Of a DNA stretch of 64,000 nt, positions 1-64,000 are shown one piece after another. This DNA comes from Phanerochaete sordida. Lineage: Eukaryota > Basidiomycota > Agaricomycetes > Polyporales > Phanerochaetaceae. The DNA is taken from the NCBI GenBank assembly GCA_019973155.2, contig BPQB01000097.1, positions 1 to 64,000 on the forward strand, read 5' to 3'. Position numbers and translations under genes: made by a program. Positions within the stretch are counted from its first letter, which is position 1, and each line of letters begins with the position of its first letter. Under the pieces are notes generated by a model that saw nothing but the letters and a program-made list of their open reading frames with translations, searched no databases and had not been told where the DNA came from.

Positions 1-108
1 AAACCCTAAACCCTAAACCCTAAAACCCTAAAACCCTAAAACCCTAAACCCTAAAACCCTAAAACCCTAAAACCCTAAAACCCTAAAACCCTAAAACCCT
101 AAAACCCA
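1..108. repeat. Left telomere, mixed 7- and 8-nt repeats
   Basis: The window opens with about 14 tandem copies reading CCCTAAA or CCCTAAAA, so the G-rich strand toward the end is TTTAGGG/TTTTAGGG. The C-rich strand runs 5'->3' into the chromosome, as expected for a left chromosome end. The three outermost units and one internal unit are 7-mers and the rest 8-mers. Most fungi use TTAGGG, so the extra T or two is unusual. The array ends abruptly in unique sequence after position 108. Confidence 0.96.
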
Positions 109-36372: not shown

Positions 36373-38455
36373 TCAGAGCAGCGGGGGCGACGGCAGCGCG
36401 AGCCCGATCCCAGAGTCGGGCGTCGCGAGGCCGTTCGCGCCGCGCAGAGCGCCGATCGCCATCTTCTCGTCTGCCGCCCCGCCGCCCACGGCGGAGCCCG
36501 TGCCGGGCGCAGAAGAGGAAGGGGCGAACCCACCGTTCTCGACCTGCAAAAAGTACTGGATGAGGTTCTGCATGAGGCCGTCCTGCTGCGCCATGTTGCG
36601 TTGGAAGAGCACCATCTCGTTGAGCACGTTCTGGTAGTTGTTCTCGAGGTTGCGGATGTGGTTCGCCATCTCCTCCTGCGCGCGCACGAACTCGTCCTGC
36701 ATCCGCGAGAGGCGCTCCTCGTGCATGCGCGAGATCTGCGAGATCTGCGTCGTGAGCGACGACACCGTGCTGCTCAGCGTCGACACCGTCGACTGCAGCG
36801 CGTTCATCGTGCTGTTCGTGCTCTGCAGCTGGTTCGTCGTCGTGCTGAGTGCGCTCGAGGTGTTGCCGATCTGCTGCTGGAGCATCTGCACTTGGTTCTG
36901 CGTGTTGAGCAGCGAGGACGAGATCGCGGTGAGGTCGGCGGTCGCGCCTGGTGATGGCGACGCGCGGGTCGCGGCGCCGCCGCCCACGGACTTGCGGGCT
37001 GCGGGCACCTTGCGCTTGATGTTCTCGAGCGCATCCCGGCGATCGGCGTGGAAGTCCGGATGCCGGAATGTCCATGACTGCGCGAGAGGTGAGCACGGGC
37101 ACGTTTCACGAGAGCGGGGCAGGAACTTACGTGCTCGCCGTAGGTGTTATCGTCCGTGTTCTTGACCTGCGAGAAGCGTGATTAGCTGAGTTCGAAGCGC
37201 AGGGGCGGAACAGGGTGGCCATTTACGACACTCGGGCCGGAGACAGCTGCCGTCCAGGCGTTTGCGTTGCGCGGCCCTCAAGAGCAACTGTCCGAGTGGA
37301 GAGCCTCTTGCGGCTGCCGTCCCGCCAGCGCGGCTCCGCAGGCGAGCCGTGGCAGGGGCGGGACGGCCGTGCTGCACCGGGCCGACGCGAGGCAAAGGGA
37401 AGCATACTCGGCGAACCCCTTCAAAGGCAGTCAGGAGACCCGAGACGCCCGGTACCGTGGCAGCAGAATCGGGGCACGGCCTGTCCGCGCAGAAAGAGGG
37501 GGACGCGGCGGGGTGAAAGAACAGGAAAGATGCGGGGGACGGAAGTAGAGCGTGGAAGGCCGCGCGGGGAAAGGCACCGCAAAGCGCAGGAGGCGGAAAA
37601 GCGAATGCTACACACCTTGTGAAAGTCGTACTTGTTCAGCTGCCGGACGAAGGACGCAAAATTGCTGTGCTTGAACATGCGCGGAAGAATCGACTTCGTG
37701 AACTCGTTCATGTCCTTGACGACGAAGCAGTCGCCATGCGGGCCCCACGAGACGACGGGCTGGAACGCAGGGTCTTCGAGCATCCTGTGCAGGCGAGGAA
37801 ACAGGCATCGTCAGGGATCGGCGGCGCGGGAGACGCAGCGGGGGACGTACTTGTACAGCTTCTTCACAAAGTCGCTCGTGCTCGGCATGCCGTCCTCGCC
37901 GCCCTCGTGCTTGACGTTGTCGCGCGCGGAGCCGCTGGGGTCTGTGCTCTCCTGGCGCTCGCGGTCGCGGTGGTCCCTGCGCTCGCGCTCCTGCTGTGCG
38001 TCCCGGTCGCGCTCGCGCTCGCGTTCCCGCTCGCGCTGCTGCTCGCGGTCGGCGCGGTCGCGGTCGAGGCGCTCGTAGGCGTCGTCCTTGAGGCTCCCGC
38101 GGCTCTCGACGCGGCGCAGAGGGGGCGTGAGCCCCGTGTAGTCGTCGCGGGAGCTGCTCGTGCGGTGGTTCCAGCTGATGCTGCCGCCGAGGCCCATGGG
38201 GCTGCTGAGCGGCGGCGGGAGCTGCGCAGCGGTGCTCAGGCTGGGGTGGCTGTATGTCGGTGGTGGGTAGCCGCGCGGCGAGGGGGACGAGGTCGAAGGG
38301 AGGGAGGGCTGGGCAATCGATGATTGCGAGACATTGAGGGGCGGGAGGGTGTTCGTGCGGAAGTTGGAGGATGAGCCGAGGGAAGACGGCGGCGGGAGAG
38401 GATCGTATTGGTTTTGAGGTTGTTGGCGGATGGAGCGGTAGTTGGATTGGTCCAT
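36373..38455 (-). CDS. HSF-type DNA-binding domain plus coiled coil (N-terminal half of a Skn7/Prr1-type protein)
   Basis: Four minus-strand exons (38455-37851, 37784-37616, 37166-37131, 37077-36373) give 504 aa in exact frame and end in TGA. Residues about 1-200 are disordered, with a run of Arg/Glu/Asp pairs. Residues about 197-295 are an HSF-type winged helix: [49 protein letters not shown], then [20 protein letters not shown]. Residues about 320-440 form a long coiled coil. This is the layout of Skn7/Prr1, the two-component transcription factor for oxidative and osmotic stress, except that the receiver domain is cut off: its coding segment begins about 500 bp downstream. Introns 1 and 3 are 66 and 53 nt, but intron 2, inside the DNA-binding domain, is 449 nt. 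The start codon lies within 6 bp of the beginning of the tandem array. Confidence 0.9.
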
Positions 38456-39017
38456 GGCCAGGTCGTCGAGGGAGCGACGGTCTGGAATCGGAGGGCGTTG
38501 GGGGGTGGAGTGGTGGAGAGCCAGGCCAGAGAATCGATTTTATCGTCCCAAGCCTTTTGATGGACCTCTAATACAAATTCACGCCTACACCTGAACTCAA
38601 TCCGGATCCCCCTTCCGACACGTCGCTCGGCCTCGCGGATTGTCCCTTGCAGTTGCTGCGAGTTGCTTGAGCATAGCAGATTCACACTTAGACCCACACA
38701 AGGCCAGCGCAGTCGTCGCCAGCGGCACGGGCAGACGCAAGGATAATGCGGATTGGGATTGGAACGCCGGCCCTGGCAGCCTACGAAGGATGATCCCGGG
38801 ACGCGAGGACTGTCGCGGTTCCTGTTCTTCCCCTTATAAGGATCCTCACACCGACAGACTCAAACAAACTGGTCTGGCCCCCGCCCTGGCCGCCCCCAGA
38901 CGCCACCACGCTCGCTCTCGCCGGTCCAGAGGCGTCCAGGCTCGCGTCCGACGCCTGTGCGACAGCGGACACCCCGCAGGCGCCGTCCCTTGTCAGCAAA
39001 ACTATTCCGCGCTGTTA

Positions 39018-40000
39018 TTACCGCGTATGGACTTTCCCGGCCGCAATTTGTAGTGCGCGTCCGACAGCTCCCGAACGCAGGTTATCCGGCGCCTGATAGC
39101 GCACGCCCATGCCACCTCGCCGCACGCCGTCGCCTGCTCTGCTACCCCTCCTACCCGTCTCTGGCGTCGCGCACACCGCATATCCGTCCCAGCACACCAT
39201 GCCACCGCCAACGCTGCCCACAGCGCGCGCACGGACCCCGCGCGCCGCCCAGATAAGCCGCGATCGCCGCCGCGCCTCGGCTCCCGCGAATTTGTAGTGC
39301 ACGCTCCGCCCTCCCACGCAGGCCGTGCGTGCGTCGCTCGCACTCCCTGTGGCGCCAGGCCGAGACGGGCCTCCGGATCCGCGGGCCACAGCGGGCAGTC
39401 TGGTGTCGCGGCCTGGTGCGTCGCGCTGCCCGCATGTGAACCTTGCCATTGAACGTTCGGCCGCGCAGAACATCGAGTGCACCGGACAGCTAGGCGCATG
39501 AGCTCGACGTACAGTACCCATCAACCCCGGCGCAGCGCTGAGCACGCTGGGCTAGCGAGGACTGCAGCAGCCAGCCACTACGCAGTGCCCGTCTGGACGG
39601 CTGGGTCCCGCGGCGAGCTTGGGTGGACCAACGCGAGCCTCCAGCTCGGGAGCGAAGGCCACGGCCTGCGCTGGTCGCCGCAAGTCTCCATTCCGGGGCA
39701 GACATGCCGTACTCGCAACGGCCGAACGGCCGTCGACGTGGATGCACTTCGCCCATTCGCGGAGGCTGCCAAGCCCAACAGGCGTCCAGGCGAGTCGAGT
39801 CTTCGCGCTGCCTGCATGGCGGGTGCTGTCGTCCGGTGCGTGGCGCGCTCGCGTCGAGTGTACTCAGCGTGCTTACCCCCAGCAGAGCGCACCGCTCAGG
39901 AGAGCTGTTCGACGGGCGAGAGGAGGAAGAGCGACGCCCGCGCACGCTGCGCGCCGCACGAGTCCTATATACCCCTCCCCAGCGTTCTCGCCGCCGCGCG
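39018..40000 (-). other. GC-rich block with minus-strand open frames, conserved in three units (unit 1)
   Basis: A TATATAG element on the minus strand near 39965 is followed by an ATG at about 39815 starting MQAARRLDSPG. A second frame beginning MARFTCGQRDAP at about 39450 runs to 39018 through HYKFAGAEARRRSRLIWAARG. Both frames reappear in unit 2 (about 51.07-52.07 kb) and the visible part of unit 3 (63.23-63.98 kb), but at least two frames stay open in all copies and small indels shift the first one in unit 2, so I cannot choose a model. No family is recognised. Confidence 0.3.
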
Positions 40001-40449
40001 AGCGTGCCTGGCGCAGGGCGAGCCCGGTGACGAGGCGCGATCGACGCCGCCCCTGGGGAGCTCGACAGCGTTGTGGCGCAGGCGCGCCCGCACGCGGGGC
40101 GGGCTTACGCTGCGCCGCTGATGGGCGAGGGCGGGCCCGAGCCTGGGCCGCCCGGCGATCATCTGCGTCGTCCCTCGCGTGCCTGCGCATGACGATTCGC
40201 GTCCGTGCGAAGCCTGCCCGCGTTGCCCTGTGTCGCTTCTTTGGTGCTCGAGGCTGTCGAAGCGCACCGGCGATCGCTTCGGGGCCGCGAGACTTGATAC
40301 GAGCACCAGGTGCGTTGACCTGTTTGCTCGGTCGTCAGGGCCAGGGGACGAGGAGCGTCGCTGCGTCGTCGGATGCGCGGCGTGGCTGCGAGTGCCCGAG
40401 ATCGGCAAAGTGCAGGCAGACTCTGCCCGGATGTCTATGTCTCCCCCAG

Positions 40450-40798
40450 ACCAGAACATGTAAATGTAGTGTACTGTGCAATTTAATCTTGTTTTGGGGT
40501 TCATCTCATTGCGCTCTGGGGCTCATTTCTCTCTGGAACGCAAAGTGTGTCGCAATAATTGCGACCTTGGTGGGACATCGAGAACACGCTCGCCTTGGTG
40601 GCCGCAGCCACCCCACCTTCTGAATAAACCTGAGCCTATGGTTATATTGCCTTGGTATCAAGCACATATATGTATGGTAAGTGCGTCGTATTACATCGTT
40701 AGATTAGGACAACTATATTATGAGACGTAGGGTAGATGTGCGCGAGGCTTACAAAGCACGTCGTAGCTAGTTCTAGATACTATGTCTACAACGGTACG
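40450..40798. other. AT-rich break inside unit 1
   Basis: A clear drop in GC marks an intergenic or 3'-end region, with its counterpart at 52.56-52.86 kb. The two copies differ here by a large replacement around 40540-40570 versus 52630-52700. No gene seen. Confidence 0.5.
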
Positions 40799-41615
40799 CT
40801 ACTTTCCAGCCTCAAAGCTCTCGAAATGTACAGAATAGCACATAGAGCTGCAAATCTACAGATTTACGTCAGAGCGACGCAATAGGTAATTCTGGGAAGA
40901 CTTACATAGTCGTGGTAGCCCGCCCGAGACGTCGAGCGAGCGCCGTCGAGATCCAGGTCGGTGTCGACAATGGACGCAGTGCCTTCGTCGGAGGGTCTGG
41001 CGGCGCACGCCGGCATCGAGGTGTCTGGCGGACGAGGGCGACGTCGAGCACCGCAGATGCCAAGGCCGGATGGCGAGCTCTGCGTCGTGACTGGTAAGTA
41101 TAGTGGTAGAGTAACACGCTGAGGAGGACTTACCACCCATTCACGGTCCTCGGGACTCGGAGCGCGGCCGCGCAGGCGTGAAGACGCCAAGCGGCGAGCG
41201 TATCTCGACGAGCTTCGCGTCCGAGACCGGAGGGTGCCGCCGCCGAGCCTGACGGCACGCAGGCACAGAGACGACGCGCGGGGCGCGGCAGGGTCGAGAA
41301 CAGCTGGTACCGAGGACGGGAGAAGCAGTCTACGTCAGGAAGACCGAGTTCATCAGTAAATTGACCTGACGCGCCGCGAGAAAAGGGTAAACTTACCAGT
41401 ACCGCTTGCGTACCATCTGGAGGCGTGCAGCCGCGCCGGCGCTGACTTGCTGAAAGCGCTGCGAAGACCCCCGGCGTTCGAGAGCTAGGGCGGCGGCGGC
41501 GGCGGAGGCGTCGGCGTCGGTCGTGTCGCGGTCACTGCGGAAAGAGGCGTCGGCGGCGAGTGGAGGGCTTCGGGAGGGCGAGAAGGGGTGAGGGATGCTG
41601 TGCGGCGGCGGCCAT
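40799..41615 (-). CDS. Putative spliced gene, unit 1 (product unknown)
   Basis: A TATAAAAG box at 41677-41684 is followed by a CT-rich leader and an ATG at 41615 starting MAAAAQHPSPLLAL. Downstream, GT-AG pairs frame exons reading LRGRAPSPEDREWV, then LGICGARRRPRPPD...SDEGTASIVD...ARSTSRAGYHDY, and a last exon ICSSMCYSVHFESFEAGK ending at 40799. The later exons are open in the same frame in unit 2, and the introns there start and end at matching places. The path from exon 1 to exon 3 is ambiguous: the two possible frames each hit a stop under one splice choice. I recognise no family. It may be a decaying gene. Confidence 0.35.
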
Positions 41616-41676
41616 GGGCGGAACGAGAGAAAGCGGGGTGAGAGGGGGATGGAGGGCAAGCGAGAGTCCGGCGCAC

Positions 41677-41684
41677 CTTTTATA
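41677..41684 (-). promoter_or_regulatory. TATA box, unit 1 minus-strand gene
   Basis: TATAAAAG on the minus strand, 62 nt upstream of the ATG at 41615; identical at 53891-53898 in unit 2. Confidence 0.6.
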
Positions 41685-41899
41685 CCTTTCGCGCAGAGAC
41701 TCCGTGGGAGCGTGCGACGCGGGCGGCCGCCTATGGTCACGCGGTTCGACACGGACGATCCCGGCGGACTCGAGCCGCACTGCTCGTGCCACCCCCTCGG
41801 CGTCGACTCGGCAGCGCGTCGCGCGCGCGTGCACGGACGAGAGAGCCTCCCGCACGAAGACGTGGCCGATTATACACGGCCCGCCGAGCTGTATCGCAG

Positions 41900-44420
41900 C
41901 CAGAGTCAGACCGAAGGGTGCACGATCAATAGAAGTAATTTACTCACGTAACGACGAGGGCATCCGCGCCGTCTCGCTTCGTCCGCCTTCGAAGGGCTTG
42001 CGGCCTCCAGAGCGGCCCCGGATCTCGCGGTCGACCGCCCTGCCACGTCACGACGGAGTCTTCTCGCCAAGACGGCATGCTGGCAGTGCACGCGAGAGTA
42101 CAGCCTGACGTACGGCTGAGTTTCGCTTGCGACGTGCGCCGGCGCGATCGCCGGCACGTCGCTGGTCTGCGCCACAGACTTCGCGCGGGTCGTGCGCCGC
42201 TCGCGCTCCGCGTCCTATTTCCGCAGGCGGATTGCCTTCCGCCCCAGTGGAGGCAGCAGAGAACGCCGCGGGCGTGCAATCGCTGGGGCGGGCCGGCAGC
42301 CAGCAGTCCGCAGGGTAAGACGACGCTTTACTTCGTCGTGGATTTCGTCGCCTTCGCCGTGGAAGCAGCGAGATCGCCTTCGCGCTCGCGGCTCGCTTGG
42401 GCTTGCTCGAGCCGAGCATCTGCGGTGGCATCTGCTAGTCGCAAAGAACACCGATCAGGAGGGCTGGAGTAGGGAAATCCCTAGGCGCGACCAAATTCTC
42501 ACCTCGAGATCCAACGGGCTGCGCTTCCCGTCCCCAGCATGTGGCACGCGGCCGCCGATGGTCTTCCGTCGCCCCCGCGGTGCCAGAAACGCTGGGATAC
42601 TAGCCAGAAAGCCGCGGTGAGTCAATCGGCTGGCACGCGGGGCAGATGGCGTACCTCGCGAGGACCATGGCAGATGGCACCCGCACGCTCCGCGCAATGT
42701 GGCGCTGCGTGTCGCGACACTCTAAGCGGCGCGAGATGAGCCGACCAAGCTCGTGCGAGAGACGGATATTTGGACTCACCGGTCCCTTGATGTGCACACA
42801 CGCGGCGCAGCATCTCGCATAGCGTTCCACGTCACGTCGAGCCGGGTCGCCTCCGTCGAGAAGCATGAGTCGTGGCGCAAAGTTGCGCCGCTCGCTTCGC
42901 GTCGTCGAACACACGCCGCGGCGGGAAGCTTCGAGTTTCACCACAAGAGAAGGTCAGCCGACGGACTATGGTGCGTGGTAGCTTGGCACACTTACTGAAT
43001 GGTCATAGGGCGAGCGTAACCCGTTCGCCTTCGTGTCAGCGACGCGCAAGGCGTACCGCAGCGCTCGCGCGACGTCTAGCATACCGCCAGGGTCGCGCGA
43101 GCACCGGGCAGTTCGTGCCCGCGTGGGAATCGACGGAGAGTGCCTGCCAGGCGATGGTTTGCGTCAGTCGGTCAGGAATTGCCCAGAATATCGACTCACG
43201 CACCGGTCAGCTGGGATCCATGGAGCGGAACGCCCAGCAGGGGCGGCAAGACGTCCGCCCGTCCGTTACGCGGATGAGTCAACACGCTGCTGGCGGAACT
43301 GAGAGCGATCATCCCGGGCGAGATCTGCTCGACGCCGCGGCCGTATTGGCACCTCCGCGTGCTGCGAAATCGGGCCTCAGACGTGTCGAATGTTTCCGAG
43401 AACGCTATCTTACCCTGAGCCCGCGTGTTGCACTGCCAGCCGAATCGCCGCCCGTGGTCTGGCTGATGGCGCGGCGAATGCGTCTGTGTGAGAATGTGAT
43501 TGCAAGACGAGTAAATCATGACGTACCCACCTTCAGCGGCGACGGCATTGCTCTGCGGCGCCCTGTAAGCCATGTGAGTCGTCTTTCAGCCCTCGCGTCC
43601 ACCGCGCGCGCCGTGCTATATCGACAACGCATCAGCGCGTGCGTATCTCTCAATCGGAGCCAGTCGTATACTTACCTCGTCCGATTGCTCGCGCGGCGTA
43701 GCAAATCTCCTGCACGTTCCCGCGTTGGCGGAGCCGCTCCACGTCACCGAAGCGGTCGTCGTGGGAAGGCTGTTGGACCTCAGCTCGCCTGTGAGCAGCC
43801 GACAATCAACGCGCGTACCTTCGGGCGCGAGCGTTCTCACGCCGCTCGCGCCGGGCCAGCCTCTCGCTTGTGCGTCGCGCATACGCAGACTCGGAGTGCT
43901 GCGGTCGACCGGTCGCCCCACGAGCTGGGTTTTCATTAAATTCACACTGTAATATTCCTGATCAGCGTTCGCAGACACATAGCAGGAACGAAAGAAAAGC
44001 CTACCTCTCGTAGATCGCAGCATCGACTTCAATGCGCGGCCTCGCTTCGAGTCTTGCCGCCGCGCGGCCTGCGCCGTCGGTGCCGCTCTGCGCCGCACCA
44101 CCGCCCTCAATTTACCTTGTGTGCGTCTCGCCGCAGCTCGCCTAGGTTTGCCGACCTCCGCCCGCCTGAGGGTGACGCGGGACTTGGTGGTTCGAGTCGA
44201 AGTTCAGGGACGGGCGTGCACGCGTGATCTCCGATAGCCTCGCCTACCCGATTTGGAGCCTCGGCTTCGTGGCGCTCGGCGCCCGACGCAGCCCCGACTC
44301 GCGAGCGAAGCGAAGCCGAGCACAGACGCTCGGTTGCGGTCTCCAGGGCGAGCCGGCAATCCAGTCGGTTGCGGTGAATAAAATGGGCCCATCGGAAATT
44401 TACGGTACGCGAGTCTCTGC
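41900..44420 (-). pseudogene. Decayed multi-exon gene, unit 1
   Basis: More than ten GT-AG pairs with typical branch sites lie on the minus strand, for example donors near 44003, 43815, 43670, 43520, 43190, 42770 and 42505. One exon reads SGTDGAGRAAARLEARPR then VDAAIYER, and the next VNLMKTQLVGRPVDRSTPS; both are conserved in unit 2 with mostly conservative changes. Other exons read RSERRNFAPRLMLLDGGD and RDVERYARCCAACVHIKGP. In unit 1 an exon near 43740 carries a TGA where unit 2 is open. Product unknown; no zinc-finger or enzyme signature I can name despite the Cys-rich CCAAC. Confidence 0.35.
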
Positions 44421-45267
44421 CCGAGATCTCGGTGCAGGCGGCCTGCCGCCTCACCAGACTGCTGGGACGCCGTGCCGCCTGCCCGGACTCGCGAGCGCGG
44501 GTCGTCGGCTAAGGTGCGCGCAAGATGCGAGCGGCAAGTGCGTGGCGGCCCACTGCATCCTGGGCGAGGTGTGCAAGTGCTGGGTGGTCATGTATCGCGG
44601 CAGCCGAGTGTTGCATGCCGGCCGCCGCTTTTTTTCCCTGCGTGGCGACACGCCGTTGGATTGCCAGTACCTTGCAGCCAATCAACGTTGGGCGGGACTG
44701 TTACGCGTCTGTTGCCAGCCGAGAGCGCCAGGGGGATGTTATTACGAGTACGAGATCCGTGTGCTTCTCGCCTCACGCCGCGCAAAACACTCCAGCGAGT
44801 GATCGTTGCTGGGAAACTGCGGACACGCTGCTGTGGCGTCGGCTATCGTGGCAGCTCGGCGACGTCGCCCGGATTTACCCTGTCTGCGGGACACTGGGAC
44901 GGACCTGCAACGACCCTCGATGCACGTAATGGCGGCGTAACACTCGGATCTTCGTCAGGGATCTTCCGCTCCGGACGCTTTTTGCCTCGTGCGTTTCGAG
45001 TTCTGCACGCCATGTCTGTGGCAAAATATGTGAGAGTACAGTCTCAAAGATGACCATGAAAGACGCTGTGAATCACACAAGGAATGGAAAATGAGAACGC
45101 TAGAGATAGCAAGCAGACGGAGAGGACAGACGAAGCGGATTCTGCATATGAAATATGAACGTGGAGAAGACGAATAAGCTACATCAAAGAAGCACAGAAG
45201 CACTGACAAAGCGATATCGAAGGGGATGGACAGACGAAGCGGAGGTATGCGAATGGCCGACGTACTC
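44421..45267. other. Between minus-strand genes, unit 1
   Basis: GC-rich 44.4-44.9 kb contains GCCAATCAACG (a CCAAT-like element, about 44676) and CATTTTATTC near 44380, so it may be a promoter for the minus-strand gene below 44.4 kb. 44.95-45.25 kb is AT-richer and could be 3' UTR of the gene at 45268. A plus-strand frame at 44224-44802 begins MISDSLAYPIWSL and its first part is almost unchanged in unit 2, but it has no splice or domain support. Confidence 0.35.
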
Positions 45268-45827
45268 TTAGTCTTGGCGAGCGCGACCTCTCGCTTGTCT
45301 GAAGGTAGGGATGGGGAGTGGTACGGCCTGCGAAATTTAGAAAAATGAGTGCGAGGGCGACTATCCAGCCTACACTCGCCGCCCTTTGGCGGGTATAAAC
45401 GTCGCGAACAGCGACGGCAAGGGCACCAAGCCCCAACGCGACGCCGCAACCCGAGTCACTTCGCGGCGAGCGAAAGTGGATGAGAAGTGCCTGATCAGCC
45501 TCGGACACGTCATGATTCGATACACGCACTGTTTCATATTGCGGGAGATGCGCGGAGACGGCGACTTGCGTGCAGCTAGCACGGAGGTAGCAAGACGCCG
45601 ACGGCGCCACGTACGCTACGAGGCTGAAGAGCGAATCAGCATGTGATGTACGGAGGACGACGAGGAACTTACCAATGTCCCGCACCTGGCAAAAACGCCG
45701 TCGCCGGGGACGGATCGCTCCAAAGGAGGAAGCTCAGGGCTGCGGCGCTCGCTTGGAAGCGCGGCAGGCAGAGTTCTCGTGGACGAGCCGAGGGAATCGT
45801 AGCCCGCTCATCGCGCGGAGTAGACAT
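45268..45827 (-). CDS. Putative 154-aa protein, three exons, unit 1
   Basis: Exons 45827-45673, 45623-45374 and 45327-45268, with introns of 49 and 46 nt, close exactly in frame to 154 aa starting MSTPRDERATIPSARPREL. Exon 2 reads AHLPQYETVRVSN...DQALLIHFRSPRSD then a Gly/Ala-rich hydrophobic stretch. The unit 2 copy has exons and introns of identical length, which supports the model. There is no signal peptide or known domain; the hydrophobic part is too short and broken for a clear membrane span. It could be part of a longer gene, since splice-like signals continue upstream. Confidence 0.5.
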
Positions 45828-46670
45828 GGGCGGCGGCGGACGTAGCCTCGAAAACTTTGGCACTGCGGTGCAGCGTTCTTTACTCCTCGTACGAATGTAT
45901 CGAATCCATAATGAAGATGGAGTTTACGCTGAACCAGAGTGAGTAAGGCAAAGCGTACACGAAAGGTCGCAGCTCACCTTCAAGGTTAATGTGTGGCGCA
46001 ACCGCGCGGCTGGTATCATTCGGGTAGTCCGGGACTCCCCGCGACGCGTTGCCTCACACCATCCAATGGCGTGCCGTATCAGGGATAGCTTTTCGCGAGG
46101 TTACGCGACGTCGGGGGGCGGGGAATCGACAGGTACCGGCCTCTCGTTCGCGCGCGCATCCGCGCCCGTCCGAGCGAGAGTGCCCCGTATATCGCCCAAA
46201 TCAAGTCGTGCGGCGGACACTGTCGGCCCAGTCGTGAGTCAAACAACGGAAGAACCAGGACGGGGAGTGCACGTACCTCCCGGAAATGGCACCGCTGCTC
46301 TCGCTCGCGTCGGGGCAATCTCGATGAGCAGCGCGCCGCGTCGAAACGAGGCTCGTACCGCAATCGTGGGCCAGCAAGAACTTGCTGGGTGCTGTGCGGA
46401 TCGCGTCGCCGTGCGCAACGTTGAACTCGAGCTGCGCCCGTCTGGTCGGCAATGTCGTCCAATGACATGCGGACCGCGTGCCTGCTGGCCAATCGCAGCT
46501 GCGCCTCGAGACGGCACGACGCCAAGGTGCGCGCACCTGTCCGAATGGAGGCGACTTGTCAGCGCGATGGCACTGTAAAGTCGGGGAATTCGCGAGCTGC
46601 GCGCCCCCGCACCTTCCAAACACGGCAGTGTCGGTCGTCGCACACAGTCGCGGCACGCGGGAAAGTCGCC
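45828..46670. other. Possible upstream exons on the minus strand, unit 1
   Basis: Intron-like pairs occur on the minus strand (donors near 45974 and 46276). A frame reading RRAVSRRSCDWPAGTRSACH and AQLEF is kept in unit 2 with both silent and amino-acid changes. No start codon or complete model was found, and no family recognised. Confidence 0.3.
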
Positions 46671-46678
46671 GAAGCGTG

Positions 46679-46685
46679 TATATAG
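46679..46685 (+). promoter_or_regulatory. TATA box of the 195-aa gene, unit 1
   Basis: TATATAG 33 nt upstream of the ATG at 46718; conserved at 58830-58836 in unit 2. An earlier ATG at 46694 is only 9 nt past the box and has become ACG in unit 2, so 46718 is the likely start. Confidence 0.65.
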
Positions 46686-46717
46686 CCCCGGGCATGCGCT
46701 TACTGCGCTCTACAGAC

Positions 46718-47445: not shown

Positions 47446-47614
47446 GGTGGTCAGCGCGGGCGGCGGGGCAGCGGTCGGGGAGTCGGCGACGGGGGACGTA
47501 CGTTTTGGTGCCGTCATAGAGCGCGCGGCGGTAGAGATTCGGCGTGCGAAATAGGAGCTTGTTGACTCGACCTCGTGACTGCGCGTGTTTCGTGGGCCGT
47601 CAAGTAGCGTCGCA

Positions 47615-50508: not shown

Positions 50509-50697
50509 GGCCAGGTCGTCGAGGGAGCGACGGTCTGGAATCGGAGGGCGTTGGGAGGTGGAGTGGTGGAGAGCCAGGCCAGAGAATCGATTTTATCGTC
50601 CCAAGCCTTTTGATGGGCCTCTAATACAAATTCACGCCTACACCTGAACTCAATCCGGATCCCCCTTCCGACGCATCGCTCGGCCTCGCGGATTGCC
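50503..50697 (-). promoter_or_regulatory. Duplicate of the Skn7-type gene's start codon and promoter-proximal block (unit 2)
   Basis: This block matches 38450-38642, which is the ATG and leader of the HSF/Skn7-type gene, with only a few differences. Read on the minus strand it presents the same ATG (50508-50506), but after ATGGAC the sequence switches to the end of unit 1. A short frame follows (MDARAFAFDATHVTMEAPG). A plausible 61-nt intron, GTGACG...TTTGGCAG, lies just beyond. Confidence 0.8.
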
Positions 50698-52859: not shown

Positions 52860-53829
52860 TTATGAGACGTAGGGTAGAGATGCGCGAGGCTTACAAACCA
52901 CGTCGTAGCTAGATCTAGATACTATGTCTACAACGGTATACCAATTTCCAACCTCAAACCTCTCGAAATGTACATAGTAACGCATAGAGCTGCAAATCTA
53001 CAGATGCAGGTCAGGGCGACGCAATATGTAATGTTGGGAAAACTTACATGGTCGTGGTAGCCCGCCCGAGGCGTCGAGCGAGCGCCGTCGAGGTCCGGAA
53101 CGCCGTCGACAAAGGACGCGGTGCCTTCGTCGGAGGGTCTGGGGGTGGACGTCGGCGTCGAGGCGTCTGGCGGACGAGTGCGGCGCTGCGCACCGCAGAT
53201 GCCAAGGCTGGACGGCGCGGTCTGTAATCCTGCGTCGTAGCTGGTAAGTATAGTGGTAGAATAACGCGCTGAGGCAGGACTCACCACCCATACATGATCC
53301 TCGGGGCTCGGAGCGCGGCCGCGCAGGAGTGAAGACGCCAAGCGGCGAGCGTATCTTGACGGGCTTCGCGTCCGAGAGCGGAGGATGCCGCCGCCGAGCC
53401 TGACGGCACGCAGGCACAGAGACGACGCGCGGGGCGCGGCGGGGTCTAGCACAGCCAGTACCGAGGGCGGGAGAGGCAGTCTACGTTAGGTAAACCGAGT
53501 TCATCAGTAAATCGACCTAACGCGCCGAGCCAATGGTAAACTCACCGCTTGTGTACGATCTGGGGCTTCAGCCGCGCCGGCGCTGACTTGGCGAAAGCGC
53601 TGCGAAGTCTTCCGGCGTTCGAGAGCTACGTCGGCGGCGGCGGCGGCTGGTGGAGGTGCGGATCGGCGCCATCGCATCGTGCGAGGCCAGCTGCTTGTTG
53701 GGCGATGCGGGGGCGGCGTCGGCGTCAGCGTAGGTCATGTCGCCGTCACCGCGGAAAGAGGCGTCGGCGGCGAGAGGAGGCATTCGTGAGGGCGAGAAGG
53801 GGCGAGGGATGCTGTGCCGCGGCGGCCAT
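52860..53829 (-). pseudogene. Counterpart of the 40799-41615 gene, unit 2
   Basis: The TATA box (53891-53898), the ATG (53829, MAAAAQHPSPLLALTN) and the exon-intron ends match unit 1. Exon 3 reads LRGRAPSPEDHVWV and exon 4 LGICGAQRRTRPPD...SDEGTASFVD. The last exon is longer than in unit 1 and stops at 52860. Exon 2 is two bases shorter than its unit 1 partner, which shifts the frame, and the alternative frame stops at a TGA, so this copy is probably broken. Confidence 0.35.
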
Positions 53830-53890
53830 CTGCGGAACGAGAGAAAGCGGGGTGAGAGGGGGATGGAGGGCAAGCGAGAGTCCGGCGCAC

Positions 53891-53898
53891 CTTTTATA
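53891..53898 (-). promoter_or_regulatory. TATA box, unit 2 minus-strand gene
   Basis: TATAAAAG on the minus strand, 62 nt upstream of the ATG at 53829, the same spacing as in unit 1. Confidence 0.55.
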
Positions 53899-54129
53899 CC
53901 TTTCGCGCAGGGACTCCGTGGGAGCGTGCGACGCGGACGGCCGCCTAAGGTCACGCGGTTCGCCACGGACGATCCCGGCGGACTCGAGCCGCACCGCTCG
54001 TACCATTCTCTCGGCGTCGACTCGGCAACGCGCCGCGCGCGCGTGTGTTCGAGAGAGCCTCCCGCGCGAAGACGTAGCCGATTATACACGGCCCGCCGAG
54101 CTGGATCGCAGCCAGAGTCAGACCGAAGG

Positions 54130-56620
54130 GTGCACGAGCAATGAAATTAATTTACTCGCGTAACGACGAGGGCGTCCGCGTCGTCTCGCTTCGTCCGCCT
54201 TCGAAGGGCTTGCGGCATCCAGAGCGGCCCCGGATCGCACGGTCGACCGCCACGTCACGACGGAGTCTTCTCGCCAGGCTGGCAGCGCACGCGAGAGTAC
54301 AGCCTGACGTACGGCTGAATTTCTCTTGCGACGCGCGCCGCCGCGATCACCGTGCCACCGGCACGTCGCTGGTCTGCGCCACAGACTTCGCGCGGGTCGT
54401 GCGCCGCTCGCGCCCAGCGTCCTATTTCCGCAGGTGGATTGCCTTTCGCCCCAGTGGCGGCGGCAGGGAGCGCCGCGGATGAGTAGTCGCTGGGGCGGGC
54501 GGGCAGACAGCAGCCCGCAGAGTGAAGCGACGCTGTACTTCGCCGCGGATTTCGTCGCCTTCGCCGTGGGAGCAGCGAGATCGCCTTCGCGCTCGCTTGG
54601 GCCTGCTCGAGCCGAGCATCTGCGGTGGCATCTGCTAGTCGCAAAGAACACCGATCAGGACGGCTGCAGCAGGGTAAATCCTTGAGTGCGACCAAATTCT
54701 CACCTTGAGAGCCAATCGGCTGCGCTTTCCTGGTCCCATGCTGTGGCGCACGGCATTCGACGGCCTTCAAGTTCCGTCGTCCCTGCACTGCTCAAAGCGC
54801 GGAGATACTAGCTAGAAGGCCGCGGTGAGTCAATCGGCTGACACACGAAGCGGATAGCGTACCTCGTGAGGGCCGTGACAGACCGCACCCGCACGTTCCG
54901 CGCAGTGTGGCGCTGCATGTCGCGACAGTCTAAGCGGCGCGAGGTGAGCCGATCAAGCTCGTGCGAGGGACGGATATCGGGAATTTGCACTCACCGGTCC
55001 CTTGATGTGCACACACGCGGCGCAGCACCTCGCGTAGCGTTCCAGGTCACGTCAAGCTGGACCGCCTCCGTCGAGAAGCGTGAATTGTGGCACAAAGATG
55101 CGCCGCTCGCTTCGCGTCGTCAAACGAACACCGCGGCGGGGAGCTTCGAAATCCACCACAAGAGAAGTCAGCCGACGGATTGTGGTGCGTGACAGCTTGA
55201 CGCACTTACGAGATGGTCATAGAGCGAGCGTCGCTCGTTCGTCTTGGTGTCAGCGCCGCGCAAGGCGTACCGCAGCGCTCGCGCGACGTCTAGCACCGGG
55301 CAGCTCGTGCCCGCGTGCGAATCGACGAAGTGCGCCTGTCAGGCGATGAATTGCGTCAGTCGGCCAGGAATTGCCCAGAATATCGACCCACGAACCGATC
55401 GGCTGGAATCCAAGGTACGGAACGCCCAGCAGGAGCGGCAATATGTCCGCCCGTCCGTTACGCGGATATGTCAACGCGCTGCTGGCGGAACTGAGAGCAA
55501 TCGTCCCGGGCGAGGTCTTCCCGACGCCGCGGCTGTATTCGCACCTCTGCGTGCTGTAAAATCGGGCCTCAGACGTGTCGAATGTTTCCGAGAACGCTAT
55601 CTTACCCTGAGCCCGCGTGTCGCACTGCCAGCGGGACCGCCGTTCGTGGTCTGACTGATGGCGTGGCGAATGCATCTGTGTGAGGATGTGATTGCACGAC
55701 GAGTAAATCATGACATACCTGCTTTAAGCGGCGACGGCATTGCTCTGCGGCTGCCCGGAAGGCATGTGAGCCGTCTCCCAGTCCTCGCGCCAGCCGCGCC
55801 CGCCGTGCTACATCGACGACGCATCAACTTGTGCGGATCTCTCGATTGAAGCCAGTCGTAAACTTACCTCGCCCAATTGCTCGCGCGGCGTAGCAAGTTC
55901 CCTGCACGTTCTCGCGTTGGCGGAGCCGCTTCACGTCGAAGCGGTCGTCGTGGGAAGGCTGTCGTACCTCAGCTCGCCTGTGAGCAGCCGACAATCAACG
56001 CGCGTACCTTCGGGCGCGGACGTTTCTCACGCCGCTCGCGCCGGGCTAGCCTCTCGCTTGTGCATTGCGTACGCGCAGACTCGGAGTGCTGCGGTCGAGC
56101 GGTCGCCCCACGAGCTGGTTTTCCAGTGAATTCACGCTGTGCTATTCCTGATCAGCGTTCGCAAACAGATAGCGGGAACAAAAGAAAAGCTCACCTCTCG
56201 TAGATCGCAGCATCGACTTGGACGCGCGGCCTCGCTTCGAGTCCTGCCGCCGCGCGGCCTGCGCCGTGGGTGCCGCTCTGCGCCGCATCACCGCCCTCAA
56301 TCTGCCTTGTGTGCGTCTCGCCGCAGCTCGCCTATGTTTGCCGACGTTCGCTCGCCAGAGAGTGACGCGGGACTTGGTGGTTCGAGTCGAAGTTCAGGGA
56401 CGGGCGTGCACGCGTGATCTCCGATAGCCTCGCCTACCCGATATGGAGCCTCGGCTTCGTGGCGCTCGGCGCCCGACGCAGCCCCGACTCGCGAGCGAAG
56501 CGAAGCCGAGCACAGACGCTCGGTTGCGGTCTCCAGGGCGAGCCGGCAATCCAGTCGGCTGCGGTGAGTAAAATGGGCCCATCGGAGATTTACGGTACGC
56601 GAGTCTCTGCCCGAGATCTC
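54130..56620 (-). pseudogene. Decayed multi-exon gene, unit 2
   Basis: Colinear with 41900-44420 and keeping most donors and acceptors. The VDAAIYER exon is intact, but the following exon (VNSLENQLVGRPLDRSTPS) reaches a TAG where unit 1 has TGG, and the exon matching LMLLDGGDPARRD has TGA where unit 1 has CGA. The lesion that affects unit 1 near 43740 is absent here: that exon is open and reads REAAPPTRERAGNLL. Confidence 0.35.
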
Positions 56621-57449
56621 GGTGCAGGCGGCCTCACCAGACTTCTGGGACGCCAGTCTCGGTGCCGCTTGCCCGGACTCGCGAGCGCGGTCGTCGGCTA
56701 AGGTGCGCGCAAGATGCGGGCGGCAAGTTTGTGGCGGCCCACTCCATGCGGGGCGAGTCGTCCAGGTGCTGGGCGGTCATGTATCGCGGACGCCGAGTGT
56801 TTCCTGCCGGTCGCCGCCTTTTTCCCTGAGTGGCGGCACGCTGTTCGATTTGCAGTACCTTGCAGCCAATCAACGCTGGGCGGGACTGTACCGCGTCTGT
56901 TACTAGCCGAGAGCGCCAGGGGGATGTTATTACGAGTGCGAGATCCGTGTGCTTCTCGCCTCACGTTGTGCAAAATACTCCTGCGAGTGATCGTTGCTGG
57001 GAAACTGCGGACACGCTCCTGTGGCATCGGCTATCCTGGCAGCTCGGCGACGTCGCCTGAATTTACCCTGTTCGCGGGACACTGGGACGGACCCGCAGCG
57101 ACCCTCGATGCACGTAATAGCGGCGTAGCACTCGCATGCTCGCAAAGGTTCTTCCGCTCCGGACGCTTCTTGCGTCGTGCGGTTTGAACCATATCTGTCG
57201 CATAATATGTCAGGGTACGGTATGTATAACGGCCGTGGAAGGAAGTGCAAATCACACGACAAGTGCACTGTGAGAATCATACTAGAAATGATAATCAGAC
57301 GGAGAGGACAGACGAAGCGGATTATACACATGAAATATGAACGCGGAGGAGACAGACAAGCTGCATCAAAGAAGCACAGAAGCACAGACAACGTGATATC
57401 GAAGAGGAAGGACAGACGAAGCGGTGGTATGCGAATGGCCGACGCACTC

Positions 57450-58009
57450 TTAGTCTTGGCGAGCGTGACCTCTCGCTTGTCTGAAGGTAGGGATGGGGAG
57501 TGGTACGGCCTGCGGAGTTTAGACCAACGAGTGCGAGGGCGAGTATGTAGCCTACCCTCGCCGCTTAGTAGCGGGCATGAACGCCGCGAACGGCGGCGGC
57601 AAGGGTACCGAACCCAAACGAGAGCCCGCAACGCGAGTCACTTCGCGGCGAGCGGAAGCGGATGAGAAGTGCCTGATCAGCCCCGGACACGTCATGATTT
57701 GATACACGCACTGTTTCACTTTGCGGGAGATGCGCAGAGACGGCGACTTGCGTGCAGCTTGCACGGAGGTAGCAAGACGCCGATGGCGCCACGCACGCTA
57801 CGAGGCTGGAGAATTAGGCAGCATGTGAAGTACGGAGGACGACGAGGGACTTACGAATTGCCTGCACCTCGGGACAATGCCGTCGCCGCGGACGGATCGC
57901 TCCAAAAGAGAAAGCTCAGCGCTGCGACACTCGCTCGGAAGCGCGGCTGGCAGACTTCTCGTGGACGAGCCGAGGGAATCGTAGCCCGCTCATCGCGCGG
58001 AGCAGACAT
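57450..58009 (-). pseudogene. Counterpart of the 154-aa gene, truncated, unit 2
   Basis: Exons 58009-57855, 57805-57556 and 57509-57450 have exactly the lengths of the unit 1 exons (155, 250, 60 nt) and the same 49- and 46-nt introns. A TAA at 57567-57565 near the end of exon 2 cuts the product to about 131 aa, losing the last 23 residues. Upstream of it the protein is well conserved (AHLPQSETVRVSN, DQALLIRFRSPRSD). It may still make a shortened protein. Confidence 0.5.
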
Positions 58010-58829
58010 GGGCGGCGGCGGACGTGACCTCGAGAGCTGGCACTGCGGTGCAGCGTTCTTTACTCCTCGTACGAATGTATCAAATCTATAGAGAAGATGA
58101 GGAGTTTAGGCTGAAACAGAGAGTGAGTAAGGCAAAGCGTACACGGAGGGTCGCAGCTCACCTTCAAGGTTAATGTGTGGCGCAACCGCGCGGCTGGTGT
58201 CATTCGCGTAATCCAGGCCTGCCCACGACGCGTTGCCTCACACCATCCAACGGCGTGCCGTATCAGGCATAGCTTTTCGTGAGGTTACGCGACGTCGAGG
58301 GGCGTGCGTTCGACCGCCGTTGCAGGTGCCGGCCTCTCGTTCGCGTGCGCAGGCGCGCCCGTTCGAGCGAGAGCTCCCCGTATACCGCCCAAATTGAGTC
58401 GTCCTATGGACAAGGTCGGCGCAGTTGTCAGTCGAAGGACGGAAGGGCCAAAGGACTGGAAGTGCGCGTACCTCCCGGGAATGGCACCTCCGCCCTCTAC
58501 TTCGTCGGAGCAATCTCGATGAGCAACGCGCCGCGTCGAATAGAGGCTCGTACCGCAGTCGTGGGCCGGTGCGAACTCAAGCTGCGCCCGCTCGGTCGGC
58601 AACGTCGTCCAATAACATTCGGACCGCGTGCCCGCTGGCCAATCGCAGCTGCGCCTCGCGACGGCACGACGCCAAGGTGCGCGCACCTGTCTGAATCGGG
58701 GCGACCTGTCAGCGCGATGGCACCTGCAAAATCGAGGAATTCGTGAGCTGCGCGCCCCCGCACCTCCCAAACACGGCAGAGTCGGTCGTCGCACACAGTC
58801 GCGGCACGCTGCAAAGTCGCCGAAGCGTG

Positions 58830-58836
58830 TATATAG
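58830..58836 (+). promoter_or_regulatory. TATA box of the 195-aa gene, unit 2
   Basis: TATATAG 33 nt upstream of the ATG at 58869. Confidence 0.65.
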
Positions 58837-58868
58837 CCCCGGGCACGCGCCTACTGCGCTCTACAGAC

Positions 58869-59566
58869 ATGCGCACCCAGTTCATCACCTTCGCCCAAGC
58901 CCTCGACATCGACCGCGAGTGCGCCGCGGACCGCGCGGCGGCGCTGCAGCAGCTGCAGAAGCGCACCGTGCTGCCGAGGATCAACAAAGGTCGGTGTCTT
59001 CTCGTCGTCGTGCGCGATGGCGCGCTGACGTGCTTGGTCCGCGCAGGCTCGAACGCGTACGCGAGCATCCTAGAGCGGCGCGGGGTGCTTAAGCGTCGCA
59101 TCGAGCGTGCACTGCGTGAGTCACTCACCGTCCTCCGCCCGCCGCCCTTCGCTGACGCCGCGCCACAGGGAAGACGAGCGGCCGGGCGGACGCGCGCATG
59201 GTCTACACGCACACCGACCACGGCTCGCTCCGGCTCTCGCTGCGGTACCGCGTCAAGCTCGTCGGCTGGCCCGCCGACGTCGTCTTCGACAGCCCGGGGC
59301 GCATCGGGCGCGCGGACGTGCTCGCGCGGCTCGTCGCCGGCTGGCGCGCGCGCACGATCCGCTTCGCGCGCCTCTCGTGGGCCGAGCTCGTGCAGCTCGC
59401 GCGCCGCGAGTGCCTCCACGTGCGCGAGCTCGCGATGCGGCCGCTCCGCGTCGACACCGGCAAGCGGCCGCGCCGCCGGTGGCTCACGCGCTCGAAGCGC
59501 ATCGGCGCGCGCAAGCCCGACGTCACGAGCTTCCGGCTCATGAAGCACAAGGAGGACTGGATCTAG
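58869..59566 (+). CDS. Unrecognised 195-aa basic protein, unit 2 copy
   Basis: Exons 58869-58989, 59047-59115 and 59169-59566 have the same lengths as in unit 1 (121, 69, 398 nt) and again give 195 aa. The protein differs at only a few residues, including Ile to Val in ADVLARL(I/V)AGW, Glu to Ala in IRF(E/A)RLSW and changes around the third exon start (RTSGS to KTSGR). Introns are shorter (57 and 53 nt), and intron sequence has diverged more than exon sequence. The first donor is GTCGGT instead of GTGCGT, a weaker site. The ATG upstream of the TATA-proximal position in unit 1 is lost here, confirming the start. Flanks and convergent neighbour are as in unit 1. Confidence 0.78.
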
Positions 59567-59737
59567 GGTGGTCAGCGCGGGCGTCGGGGCAGCGGTCGGA
59601 GCGTCGGCGACGGGGGACGTACGTTTTTGGTTGCCGCGATAGAGCGCGCGGCGGTAGAGATTTGGCGTGCGAAATACGAGCTTGTTGACTCGATCTCGTG
59701 ACTGCGCGTGTTTCGTGAGCCGTCGAGTAGCGTCGCA

Positions 59738-62677
59738 TCACGACCAGGCGCAAGCGGCGCCGGGAGCGCAGACGCTGGGCCGAGCGCGAGATCGAAATTT
59801 TGAGGTGCTCCGGTCGCGTAAGTCGCCGCTAGCTGGTCCGATGCTCTGGTTCCGCGGTCGTCTGGACGCGGGCAGTAACGGGCTCGTCGTTTGCCTCCGT
59901 CCCACCACCACGCCCTTTGCGTCGTCGTCGCCGCGTTCGGTGTCCATTCCTGACGGCCGTCGTGCCGGTCGTCCTCCTCGCGCACCCGCACGTCGTCGTC
60001 TCTTGAGCTCCTCGCACGTCGTCCTGGGGTCTCCGTTCGTGCCACCTTGGAGCGCGGCGCCCTCGCCGACGATTAGCCTAGATTGCGCTACACAACAACG
60101 CCAGTGAGTCCCAATCTCTCGTGCAAAGCCCGTCTCGTGCTCACCGTTGGCAGCCCGACGCCGTCCACGCTCGGCTGAACCCGTCCGTCTCCACCTCGCA
60201 GCCAGCGTCGACCGCCCTGAACGTCGGAATCGCGCGCGCGCACGCCGTCGACTGCGGCCCAAGACACCGTCCCGACGGCTCGAAAACGCGCGGGCCGCTC
60301 TGTCACCCGGGGCATTCGTCCGGCACAGCCCGTGCACGACGCCCTTGAAGTGCCGACCACGGCGTCGCGCCGCGGGCTGCACACATCGCCGACGGCCACG
60401 GCGCGCCTCTGCGCCTTCGTGGTGCTCGCGCGCCGTCCTGGCGCTACGCCGGTCCGCGTCCTCGTCGTCGCGGAGCGCGCCGCTCTCGTCGTTGTGGAGC
60501 GTCGTTCGGGCTGCACGACGAGGCCGGTAAGTCCCAGTCTCTCGCACATCCACACTCTCGTGCTCACCGTCCGCCCCCAGGCCTCGTCCACGCTCCCCGG
60601 CGGCACGCCCGCCGCGGTCCTCGGACGCCTGCACCGCGCCGCCGCCGCCGCGCGACACGCACCGCGCGATCCTCGCCCGGAATTTCGACCGCGGATTTCG
60701 CCGTCCCGCGACCAGGGCACCGCGCGGCAGAGGTTAGCCGTCGCCAGCGGCGCGCGTCGGCCCCTCGTCCCTTGCCTGCGTTCCCGCCGTCGTGGAGCGT
60801 TGCGCCCGACGACGCCGGGCACCGTCCGCGCTGCACGACGAAGCCGGTCAGCGCACACGTCTCCAACGCCGGCGAGAGCGTGCTCACCGTGTGCCCCCAG
60901 ACACCGCCGGCGCCCGCGTCGACCACCCCAAAACGCCTCGAACGCGGCCTCGCGCCGCACGACACGCACGGCGCCGCCCTCGGCCGCAATTCCGACGACG
61001 GATTCCGACGTCCCGCGAACAGGGCGCTGCGGGCCGCAGACGTCGACGGCGGCCGCGCGTCGTGGTGTCTTGCGGGCCGCGCCCCGCGTGCTGCTGCCTC
61101 GCGCCCGCGCACGTCGTCGCAGCGAGCCCCGCGCGCCGTCCTGGTCTTCGCCGCGAGGTCCCGTCTTCCGCTTCCCGGGCCGCCGCTGCGCGCGGGCGGC
61201 GTCCCGTGCTGTCGACGTGCGCGAGGGCCGCCGCCATGTATCGCCGTCCGCCGAGGCGGGGCTGCGCGCCGTCGTCGAGTAGAGCATTCGCCGCCCCGCG
61301 GCCGGGCGGCGCGCGCCCTTCTGCGCCCGCGGCGGCGCAGTGCTGGCGCCGTATGCCGCTGTCCGCCGGCGTAGACGGGGAGCGCAGCGCGGCCGCCTGG
61401 ACGCATCGACGCCGCGCGAGCCGGCCGTCTGCGTCGCCGCGGCGCACGTCGTCCGCGTGCTTCGACGCCCCGCGGGCGTGTCTTCGTCGCGCGGACGTCT
61501 GTCGGCCCTGCGCCGTCGCGAACGCCGTTGTCTTGGCAGTTTCGACGCCCCGCGCGCCGATTCGATTTTCTGGCGTCCCGCGGCGCGGACGGCGCAGGGC
61601 GCGGGTTCGGCGCGTTCGTGAGCGTGCGCGGCGGGGCGCTGCGTGCGCCGCGGCGGTGCCTGCGCCTTGCGCACAAGTGCGCGTGGGCGCTAACGGCGGT
61701 GGTGCGCTCGGCGGCGTGGAGAACGCTGCCAAGGCGGCGCGGCGGTTCTGGTGAGCCTTCTGAGGGTTTGTGGTGTCGCGTGCGGCGTGCTGACGCCTTC
61801 TGCGAGTGCGCAGAGCGCAGGAAGCGCGTCGAGCGGCGGATGCTGCCGCGCTGCTTGTGCTTCGAGGAGGGCGTTGCGGCGTCGAGGAACGCACGGGGGC
61901 GAGAGCGGAAGTGCAGCGACACTACGCCAGGTGAGATTTGAGCGCCCCACTGCTGCTGAAACTCGACATACTCACCTTTTCCACGGGAGACCATCTCCTG
62001 CTGCAGCTCGAGATCATCCCGCGCGACCAAAGCGACCTCCCGCGCGTGGAGAGGCACCACGGGCTGTGCGTCACCCGCAATAGCGAGAGACTCGAGGGCG
62101 ACGTGAGGGAGATAGGGCGGAAGGGCGGAGGTGTTCGATGTTCGGCGTGCGCGCGCGCGGACGCGTCATGCCCGGGGTGCGAGGGACACCCTGCGCGCGA
62201 GAATGAAGGTCAGTGAGTAGACAGAAGGCGGCAGACGCAGCGCACCATCGTGGTGTGCGTGACAGCACGCGACCGGGCGCATACAGCGGAAGCGCGGGAG
62301 CCGGGCACGCGGTGTTGAACGCGCAAAGCGGGGAGAGCCGTCCTGGGCAGAGGGCGACGAGAAGCGCGTGGTGGCGCGGCTGGAGCGATGGAACGGGCGT
62401 GTTGGAGGCGTCGTTGGGTCTGCCAGGGCGGAGGGCGTGCGGGAGCGGACTGTGGGCGTGGGCACGAGCTGGAGCTGGAGAGCGAGACAGCGCACGCGCG
62501 AGGGACGCCACCATCAGCGCGAGGCGACCGAGGCAGCGGCACCGGCCAGGTCCCTGCCAAATCTTCGTCCCAGAGTCGTGTTTGTAGGTCGCCAGATACA
62601 CCGCGTCACCGGCAACCTCTGCCCGGCGCTTCCGGGGTCACGTGAGTGGCGTCAAACGCGAACGCGCGCGCGTCCAT
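59738..62677 (-). CDS. Putative gene of tandem exon modules with 57-nt introns, unit 2
   Basis: Introns 60887-60831, 60567-60511 and 60144-60088 are again each 57 nt with the same ends. Exons between them are 263 and 366 nt, differing from unit 1 (239 and 363) by multiples of three, which argues for coding. The last exon reads SRLIVGEGAALQGGTNGDP and ends at 59738. Upstream exons include LPPYLPHVALESLAIAGDA followed by VVPLHAREVALVARDDLELQ at about 61980-62130, a stretch with varied, protein-like composition. The first 57-nt intron's acceptor is GTGTAG here. The Skn7-derived ATG at 62677 could be its start, but the first exons are not resolved. Confidence 0.42.
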
Positions 62678-62866
62678 GGCCAGGTCGTCGAGGGAGCGAC
62701 GGTCTGGAATCGGAGGGCGTTGGGGGGTGGAGTGGTGGAGAGCCAGGCCAGAGAATCGATTTTATCGTCCCAAGCCTTTTGATGGGCCTCTAATACAAAT
62801 TCACGCCTACACATGAACTCAATCCGGATCCCCCTTCCGACACGTCGCTCGGCCTCGCGGATTGCC
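62672..62866 (-). promoter_or_regulatory. Duplicate of the Skn7-type gene's start codon and promoter-proximal block (unit 3)
   Basis: Same block as at 38450 and 50503, with ATG at 62677-62675 reading leftward into the end of unit 2. The short frame after the ATG is kept, with two substitutions relative to the unit 2 copy (Met to Pro and Arg to Cys). Confidence 0.8.
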
Positions 62867-64000
62867 CTCAGCGACGCCCACAGATTTCACAAGGCTTGCC
62901 AAGGCCCTCGCCAGGGCACCGCAGTCGTCGCCAGCGGCACCGGCAGACGCAAGGATAATGCGGATTGGCATTGGAACGCCGGCCCTGGCAGCCTACGAAG
63001 GATGATCCCGGGACGCGAGGACAGTCGCGGTTCCTGTTCTTCCCCTTATAAGGATCCTCACACCGACAGACTCAAACAAACTGGTCTGGCCCCCGCCCTG
63101 GCCGCCCCCAGACGCCACCACGCTCGCCCATCCCGGTCGAGAGGGGTCCAGGCTCCCGTCCGATGCCTGTGCGACAGCGGACTCCCCGCAGGCGCCGCCC
63201 CTTGTCAGCGAAAGTATCTTTCCAAATTATTACCGCGTATGGACTTTCCCGAGCGCAATTTGTAGTGCGCGTCCGACAGCCCCCGAACGCAGGTTATCCG
63301 GCGCCTGATAGCGCACGCCCATGCCACCTCGCCGCACGCTCTGGCGTCGTCCGCTACCTCTCGTACCCGTCTCTGGCGTCGCGCACACCGCACAGCCGTC
63401 CCAGCACACCATGCCACCGCCAACGCTGCCCGCAGCGCGCGCACGGACCCCGCGCGCCGCCCAGATAAGCCGCGATCGCCGCCGCGCCTCGGCTCCCGCG
63501 AATTTGTAGTGCTCGCTCCGCCCTCCCACGCAGGCCTTGCGTGCGTCGCTCGCACTCCCTGTGGCGCAGGGTCTCGACGGGCCTCCGGATCCGCGGCTCG
63601 CAACGGGCAGCCTCGTCGCGGGGCCTGGTGCGTCGCGCTGCCCGCATGTGAACCTTGCCATCGACCGTCCGGCTGCGCGCGCGCGGCCTGCGCTGGTCGC
63701 CGCACCTGCCCATTCCCGGGCAGACATGCCGTGCTTGCAACGGCCGAACGACCGTCGAGGTGGATGCGCTTTGCCCGTTCGCGGGGGCTGCCAAGCACGA
63801 CAGGCGTCCAGGCGAGTCCAGTCTTCGCGCTGCCTGCATGGCGGGTGCGGTCGTACGGTGCGTGGCGCGCTGGCATCGGACGCCTGACCTTCCACCACAG
63901 TGCACCTCCTGGGAGGGCCGTTCGCGAGCGGGCTGGCAGAGGAGGACGAGCGACGCCCCCGCACTTGCGCGCTGCCCGTGCCCTATATACCCCTCCCCCA
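62672..64000. repeat. Tandem repeat unit 3 (first 1.3 kb; runs off the window)
   Basis: Third copy, starting again at GTCCATGG and continuing colinear with units 1 and 2 to the end of the window, including the CCCCTTATAAGGATCC element at about 63046 and the CCTATATACCCCTCCCC element at about 63981. The junction with unit 2 is the same as the unit 1/unit 2 junction, so the array arose by tandem duplication rather than independent insertions. Confidence 0.95.

Follow-up and report, generated by a model that had tools for sequence, protein, structure and literature searches.

A closed tandem duplication with one edge at the start codon of an SKN7-type gene in Phanerochaete sordida

The locus and the layout of the repeat

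The window, i.e. the whole stretch of 64,000 bases that was analysed, corresponds to bases 1-64,000 of contig C97, which ends at 114,816 and belongs to an assembly of 40.84 Mb in 222 contigs. It begins at a chromosome end, since its first 107 bases are telomeric repeats, in which 7- and 8-base units (CCCTAAA and CCCTAAAA) are mixed.

An SKN7-type gene lies at the left edge of a tandem repeat (Table 1). Its identity, put forward in the original prediction, was borne out by two domains that Pfam placed on neighbouring exons of the same strand: (i) an HSF-type DNA-binding exon (PF00447, E=3e-19, at 37625-37783), whose closest solved relative is 5d5w (E=1.4e-19); and (ii) a response-regulator receiver (PF00072, E=1.9e-14 at 34467-34658; E=1.2e-12 in another scan). 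The exon between both domains gave weak matches to coiled-coil families, below the cut-off. We infer that the HSF-type and receiver exons belong to a single transcript. A search of the own genome with the stretch 33900-38449 gave, besides the stretch itself, two short matches, on contigs C5 and C1.

To the left of the SKN7-type gene, at 33151-33254, Rfam gave a tRNA match of ~104 bases, a length that makes this tRNA probably intron-containing, though ARAGORN found no tRNA. An inverted copy (92%) is located right of the array, at C97:68334-68446, and similar copies are present on contigs C7 (90%) and C117 (88%). Unique DNA and an ABC-transporter gene follow the third repeat piece; in the Pfam scan, PF00005 was absent from the four other exon pieces of this gene. 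Another ABC_tran frame (E=2e-16) lies on the minus strand at 28401-28937, and part of it is related at the DNA level to the ABC-transporter gene just mentioned.

Self-comparison reproduced the predicted starts of shared sequence exactly, at 38450, 50503 and 62672, always at GTCCATGG, with spacings of 12,053 and 12,169 bp. The layout can be written as SKN7-A1-B1-A2-B2-A3-flank, where A is the DNA upstream of SKN7 together with its ATG and one codon, and B is a segment of ~10.2 kb. In other words, two 12-kb blocks placed head to tail (38450-50502 and 50503-62671) are followed by a short third piece. A1, A2 and A3 all have the same orientation, as direct repeats that flank and separate the duplicated segments. 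The proposal that one array edge falls at the SKN7 start codon held as well: the ATG occupies 38455-38453 (minus strand) and the homology begins at 38450, so that the ATG plus one further codon are present in each copy. No homology was found between the end of B and SKN7.

The array had been described as one in which every unit starts in this way and which continues past the window. Instead, it consists of two complete units plus a fragment: in steps of 100 bases, the third-copy homology is far above shuffles through 64,201-64,300 and shuffle-like beyond, and no remnant of B rises above shuffles from ~64,300 on (tested against the stretch 51,601-53,200). Some 300 bp of A3 lie beyond the window, and self-comparison revealed no further copy up to the end of C97 at 114,816. 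An open-ended array was rejected on the basis of the sequence of this contig to its end and of own-genome searches. The duplication is closed, with ~2.1 copies.

Table 1. Coordinates of the features (window positions, unless C97 is given)
Feature	Position	Strand	Remarks
Telomeric repeats (CCCTAAA/CCCTAAAA)	1..107	.	
SKN7-type gene	33991..38455	-	Several exons, left unjoined; ATG 38455-38453; approximate outer limits
A1, SKN7 upstream region, part common to A3	38450..40317	.	1,868 bp
B1	40318..50502	.	10,185 bp
Small three-exon gene, copy 1	46718..47445	+	195 aa; exons 46718-46838, 46912-46980, 47048-47445; coding score, splice model, homologues
Relocated SKN7 start codon fused to B1 end	50440..50508	-	23-codon frame, without stop
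A2	50503..52434	.	1,932 bp; B1-A2 junction at 50502/50503
B2	52435..62671	.	10,237 bp
Small three-exon gene, copy 2	58869..59566	+	Exons 58869-58989, 59047-59115, 59169-59566; splice model
Second relocated start codon	62609..62677	-	23-codon frame, without stop
A3, third partial copy	62672..64000	.	~1,650 bp; runs on to ~C97:64,300-64,324, then unique sequence
ABC-transporter gene right of A3	C97:65,172-68,072	+	Translation; PF00005 (ABC_tran) E=2e-18, one exon

Content, uniqueness and divergence of the units

A codon-usage score, for which 1,176 codons from C97 served as the training set, rose above threshold in one island per unit, each with a weaker antisense shadow. Each unit carries there a small three-exon gene with GT-AG introns and an upstream TATATA box, in frame and intact in both copies. 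Thirteen codons differ between the copies (8 synonymous and 6 nonsynonymous differences; dN 0.014, dS 0.055, dN/dS 0.25). This dS is about half of the overall divergence between units, so that gene conversion, or else constraint on silent sites, may have acted. The last exon has homologues on contigs C18 (49%), C1 (40%) and C20 (37%), while among 928 candidates a single public relative of the protein emerged (72%, covering 63% of the query). It matched no Pfam family, a unit-2 frame gave no convincing match against the PDB (best E=0.63), and a predicted model of the last exon, built with six sequences, reached a mean pLDDT of 57.9.

Outside this gene the unit looks non-coding, within the scope of a Pfam scan that took in 30 of the 75 frames with 150 aa or more between 38450 and 62671; no family reached the cut-off, and the sole row returned was EP400_N (E=0.12). 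Five other large frames showed differences without clear codon-phase bias, a test that is little informative for the small gene itself, whose third exon has 11 differences (5, 3 and 3 by phase). Two sub-threshold Rfam matches fall in unit 1, and the single match at gathering score in the window is the tRNA outside the array.

Four queries jointly covering unit 1 were searched against the own genome (counts are lower bounds for repeats). The first of them, 38450-39450, was found in three places, all on C97; 39450-44000, in places on C97 together with three scraps, 31-34 bp long, on contig C217; and 44000-48000 and 48000-50502, in two places each, all on C97. A local comparison revealed further short scraps common to unit 1 and C217. 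A motif of ~34 bp, present at 40717-40750 and 52859-52892, is found again on C217, where a degenerate repeat at positions 4826-5441 contains it several times at intervals of 80-130 bp.

That the unit is a mobile element or an rDNA-like unit, either of which the original prediction had named as fatal to its reading, is extremely improbable: we found nothing in favour of such an origin, no copies off C97 were found beyond the C217 scraps, and neither transposase nor rRNA content was detected by the Rfam scan or by the Pfam scan of 30 of the 75 array frames.

Aligned from end to end, over 11,858 columns, unit 1 and unit 2 share 89.7% identity, far above chance. Across 237 overlapping windows of 200 columns the median identity was 0.905, and the 36 best of them correspond to the small gene and the DNA just right of it, the promoter stretch 38,450-39,450, ~39,940-40,390, ~44,140-44,540 and one window at 50,291. 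These high-identity windows may reflect gene conversion, the crossover itself discussed below, or constraint. The island at 44136-44536 and its unit-2 counterpart are ~97-98% identical, with no coding signal seen in them and no Rfam match nearby. As to the type of change, the transition/transversion ratio is 1.6, and transitions affect 6.1% of CpG, 8.9% of CpC, 4.5% of CpT and 4.0% of CpA, which we read as no CpG-directed process. RIP-like mutation was rejected on the basis of these values.

The final 162 bp of B1 and B2 are 96.3% identical. The B-A junctions are identical although their flanks have diverged, and so the junction is older than the second (last) duplication, and misassembly is hard to invoke. 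By exact match, the 30-base B-A junction occurs at two places in the assembly, both of them the internal sites, which makes a simple misassembly unlikely. A divergence of ~10% would also be compatible with two nuclear haplotypes, strung head to tail (or with misjoined reads) by the assembler. Nevertheless, such an artefact would have to produce the same exact junction twice with diverged flanks, and no allelic copy was found on other contigs by the own-genome searches covering unit 1. We regard it as highly improbable.

Origin of the duplication

The history that we favour, with moderate confidence, is an old local segmental tandem duplication in which a copy of A was placed beyond B and the two repeats, A1 and A3, then recombined unequally so that B was duplicated. 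It would comprise the following steps: (i) an event without visible homology would have put a copy of the SKN7 upstream region beyond the ~10.2-kb B, with the breakpoint of A 6 nt into the coding sequence, to give SKN7-A1-B-A3-flank; (ii) an unequal crossover involving the two direct copies A1 and A3 may then have duplicated B and created a hybrid A2, with its left part from A3 and its right part from A1, to give SKN7-A1-B1-A2-B2-A3-flank; and (iii) the copies have diverged, as the alignment shows, by ~10%, with the small gene intact in each B. The start codon at the array edge would then most simply be the breakpoint of the first step, copied by the second, and not a designed part.

The A-B-A-B-A layout with an incomplete last A speaks for this crossover history, as do the B-A junction older than the second event, the restriction of unit 1 to C97 apart from the C217 scraps, the gene model that is in frame in both units and the yeast precedent for this class of mechanism (PMC4232551). 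Furthermore, the identities along A switch in the direction that an A1 x A3 crossover predicts. Over 38450-39000, A2 and A3 are 97.4% identical (A1/A2 91.8%, A1/A3 91.5%), and over 39000-39467 it is A1 and A2 that are closest (97.2%, versus 91.2% for A2/A3 and 90.6% for A1/A3). A maximum-chi permutation test on sites placed the break at 38998/39002 (p=0.0005, n=197). After removal of the densest block the test gave p=0.0035 (n=165 sites), with the best break shifted to 39963/39995; when the part right of 39480 was removed too, the break returned to 38998/39002 (p=0.004, n=58; 9:4 left, 8:37 right).

This hybrid signal, however, rests on clustered differences: 28 of the 29 sites at which A2 equals A3 within 38450-38900 fall inside one A1-specific block (38643-38729). 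Once differences were collapsed to events by 12-bp merging, the mosaic signal was gone (Fisher tests, p=0.70, with counts of 7:7 left versus 5:8 right, and p=0.53; with 25-bp merging, 1.0 and 1.0). In addition, a second patch of 12 sites where A2 equals A3 (39898-39963) is located where a single-switch hybrid A2 should resemble A1 and, thus, misfits one clean switch. The shift of the best break to 39963/39995 on removal of the densest block also counts against the hybrid, as does the first 190 bp, in which the three copies are about equally similar (97.9-99.0%). The block 38643-38729 lies upstream of the SKN7 ATG and, with its 28 sites, A1 alone is there densely different from A2 and A3, as if it had been replaced.

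The event-collapsed tests weigh against the crossover history and leave room for a different course of events, in which the whole of A+B was tandem-duplicated by a non-homologous join, expanded to at least three units, and the last unit was deleted down to its first 1.65 kb. Identical junctions are accounted for in this way; the junctions of the CUP1 arrays have the same form and share no more than 3 bp (PMC4232551); and the collapsed test lends no support to a hybrid A2. Against it stand the extra deletion required, ending upstream of the ABC-transporter gene, and the flip of the A identities as predicted by an A1 x A3 crossover. We consider that duplication of the whole A+B is possible but unlikely, and that the A1 x A3 crossover is the likelier history.

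Relocated promoters and known parallels

According to the original prediction, each further copy of A brings in a promoter that points leftward, into genes of the array. This expectation does not agree with the content of the units: the frames fused to the relocated start codons have 23 codons (Table 1), the one recognised gene of the unit is oriented rightward, with its end ~3 kb away, and beyond the relocated ATGs no leftward gene that these promoters might drive was recognised in the sequence.

The detached promoters of A2 and A3 could still have been kept for use, for instance for a leftward noncoding RNA or for titration of SKN7 regulators. In favour of this option, A1 and A2 share an identical run of 186 bp at 38730, against a unit-wide difference of 10%, and all three A copies retain a CCTTATAAGG box. 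But gene conversion, or the crossover itself, yields the same pattern, A3 is ~9% diverged over 39000-39467, and the fused frames have those 23 codons; we regard retention for use as most improbable. It is likewise very doubtful that the detached SKN7 promoters are active, with a stress-responsive leftward noncoding RNA or a sink for SKN7 regulators turning an accident into a feedback device. The locus illustrates the fate of detached promoters, as well as how the upstream region of a gene may turn into a repeat that later duplicates neighbouring DNA.

No described element with this layout was known to the original prediction, which listed a subtelomeric amplicon among its options; a local amplicon is the right class. 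Parallels do exist in flanking-repeat unequal crossing over and in the CUP1 arrays (PMC4232551), and the locus is a segmental tandem duplication of a known kind, not a new class of element. In yeast, single-copy segments are described as duplicated through unequal crossing over between direct repeats that flank them (PMC4232551). The CUP1 arrays of Saccharomyces cerevisiae are ascribed to nonhomologous joining with a break inside a neighbouring gene; at their junctions, which share 3 bp or fewer, a portion of this gene meets intergenic DNA. The Type 1 repeat measures 1,998 bp, repeats differ by ~0.5%, and their number varies among strains (PMC4232551).

As compared with these systems, according to what the same source describes (PMC4232551), the locus studied here resembles CUP1 in being a local head-to-tail array with an internal junction at which a piece of a neighbouring gene abuts an intergenic region, but its units are of 12 kb instead of 1,998 bp, differ by ~10% instead of ~0.5%, and are present in ~2.1 copies. 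It also resembles flanking-repeat crossing over, by which repeat-segment-repeat becomes repeat-segment-repeat-segment-repeat (PMC4232551). While in the yeast cases named in that source (PMC4232551) the flanking repeat is a Ty element, here it is a piece of the upstream region of a gene.
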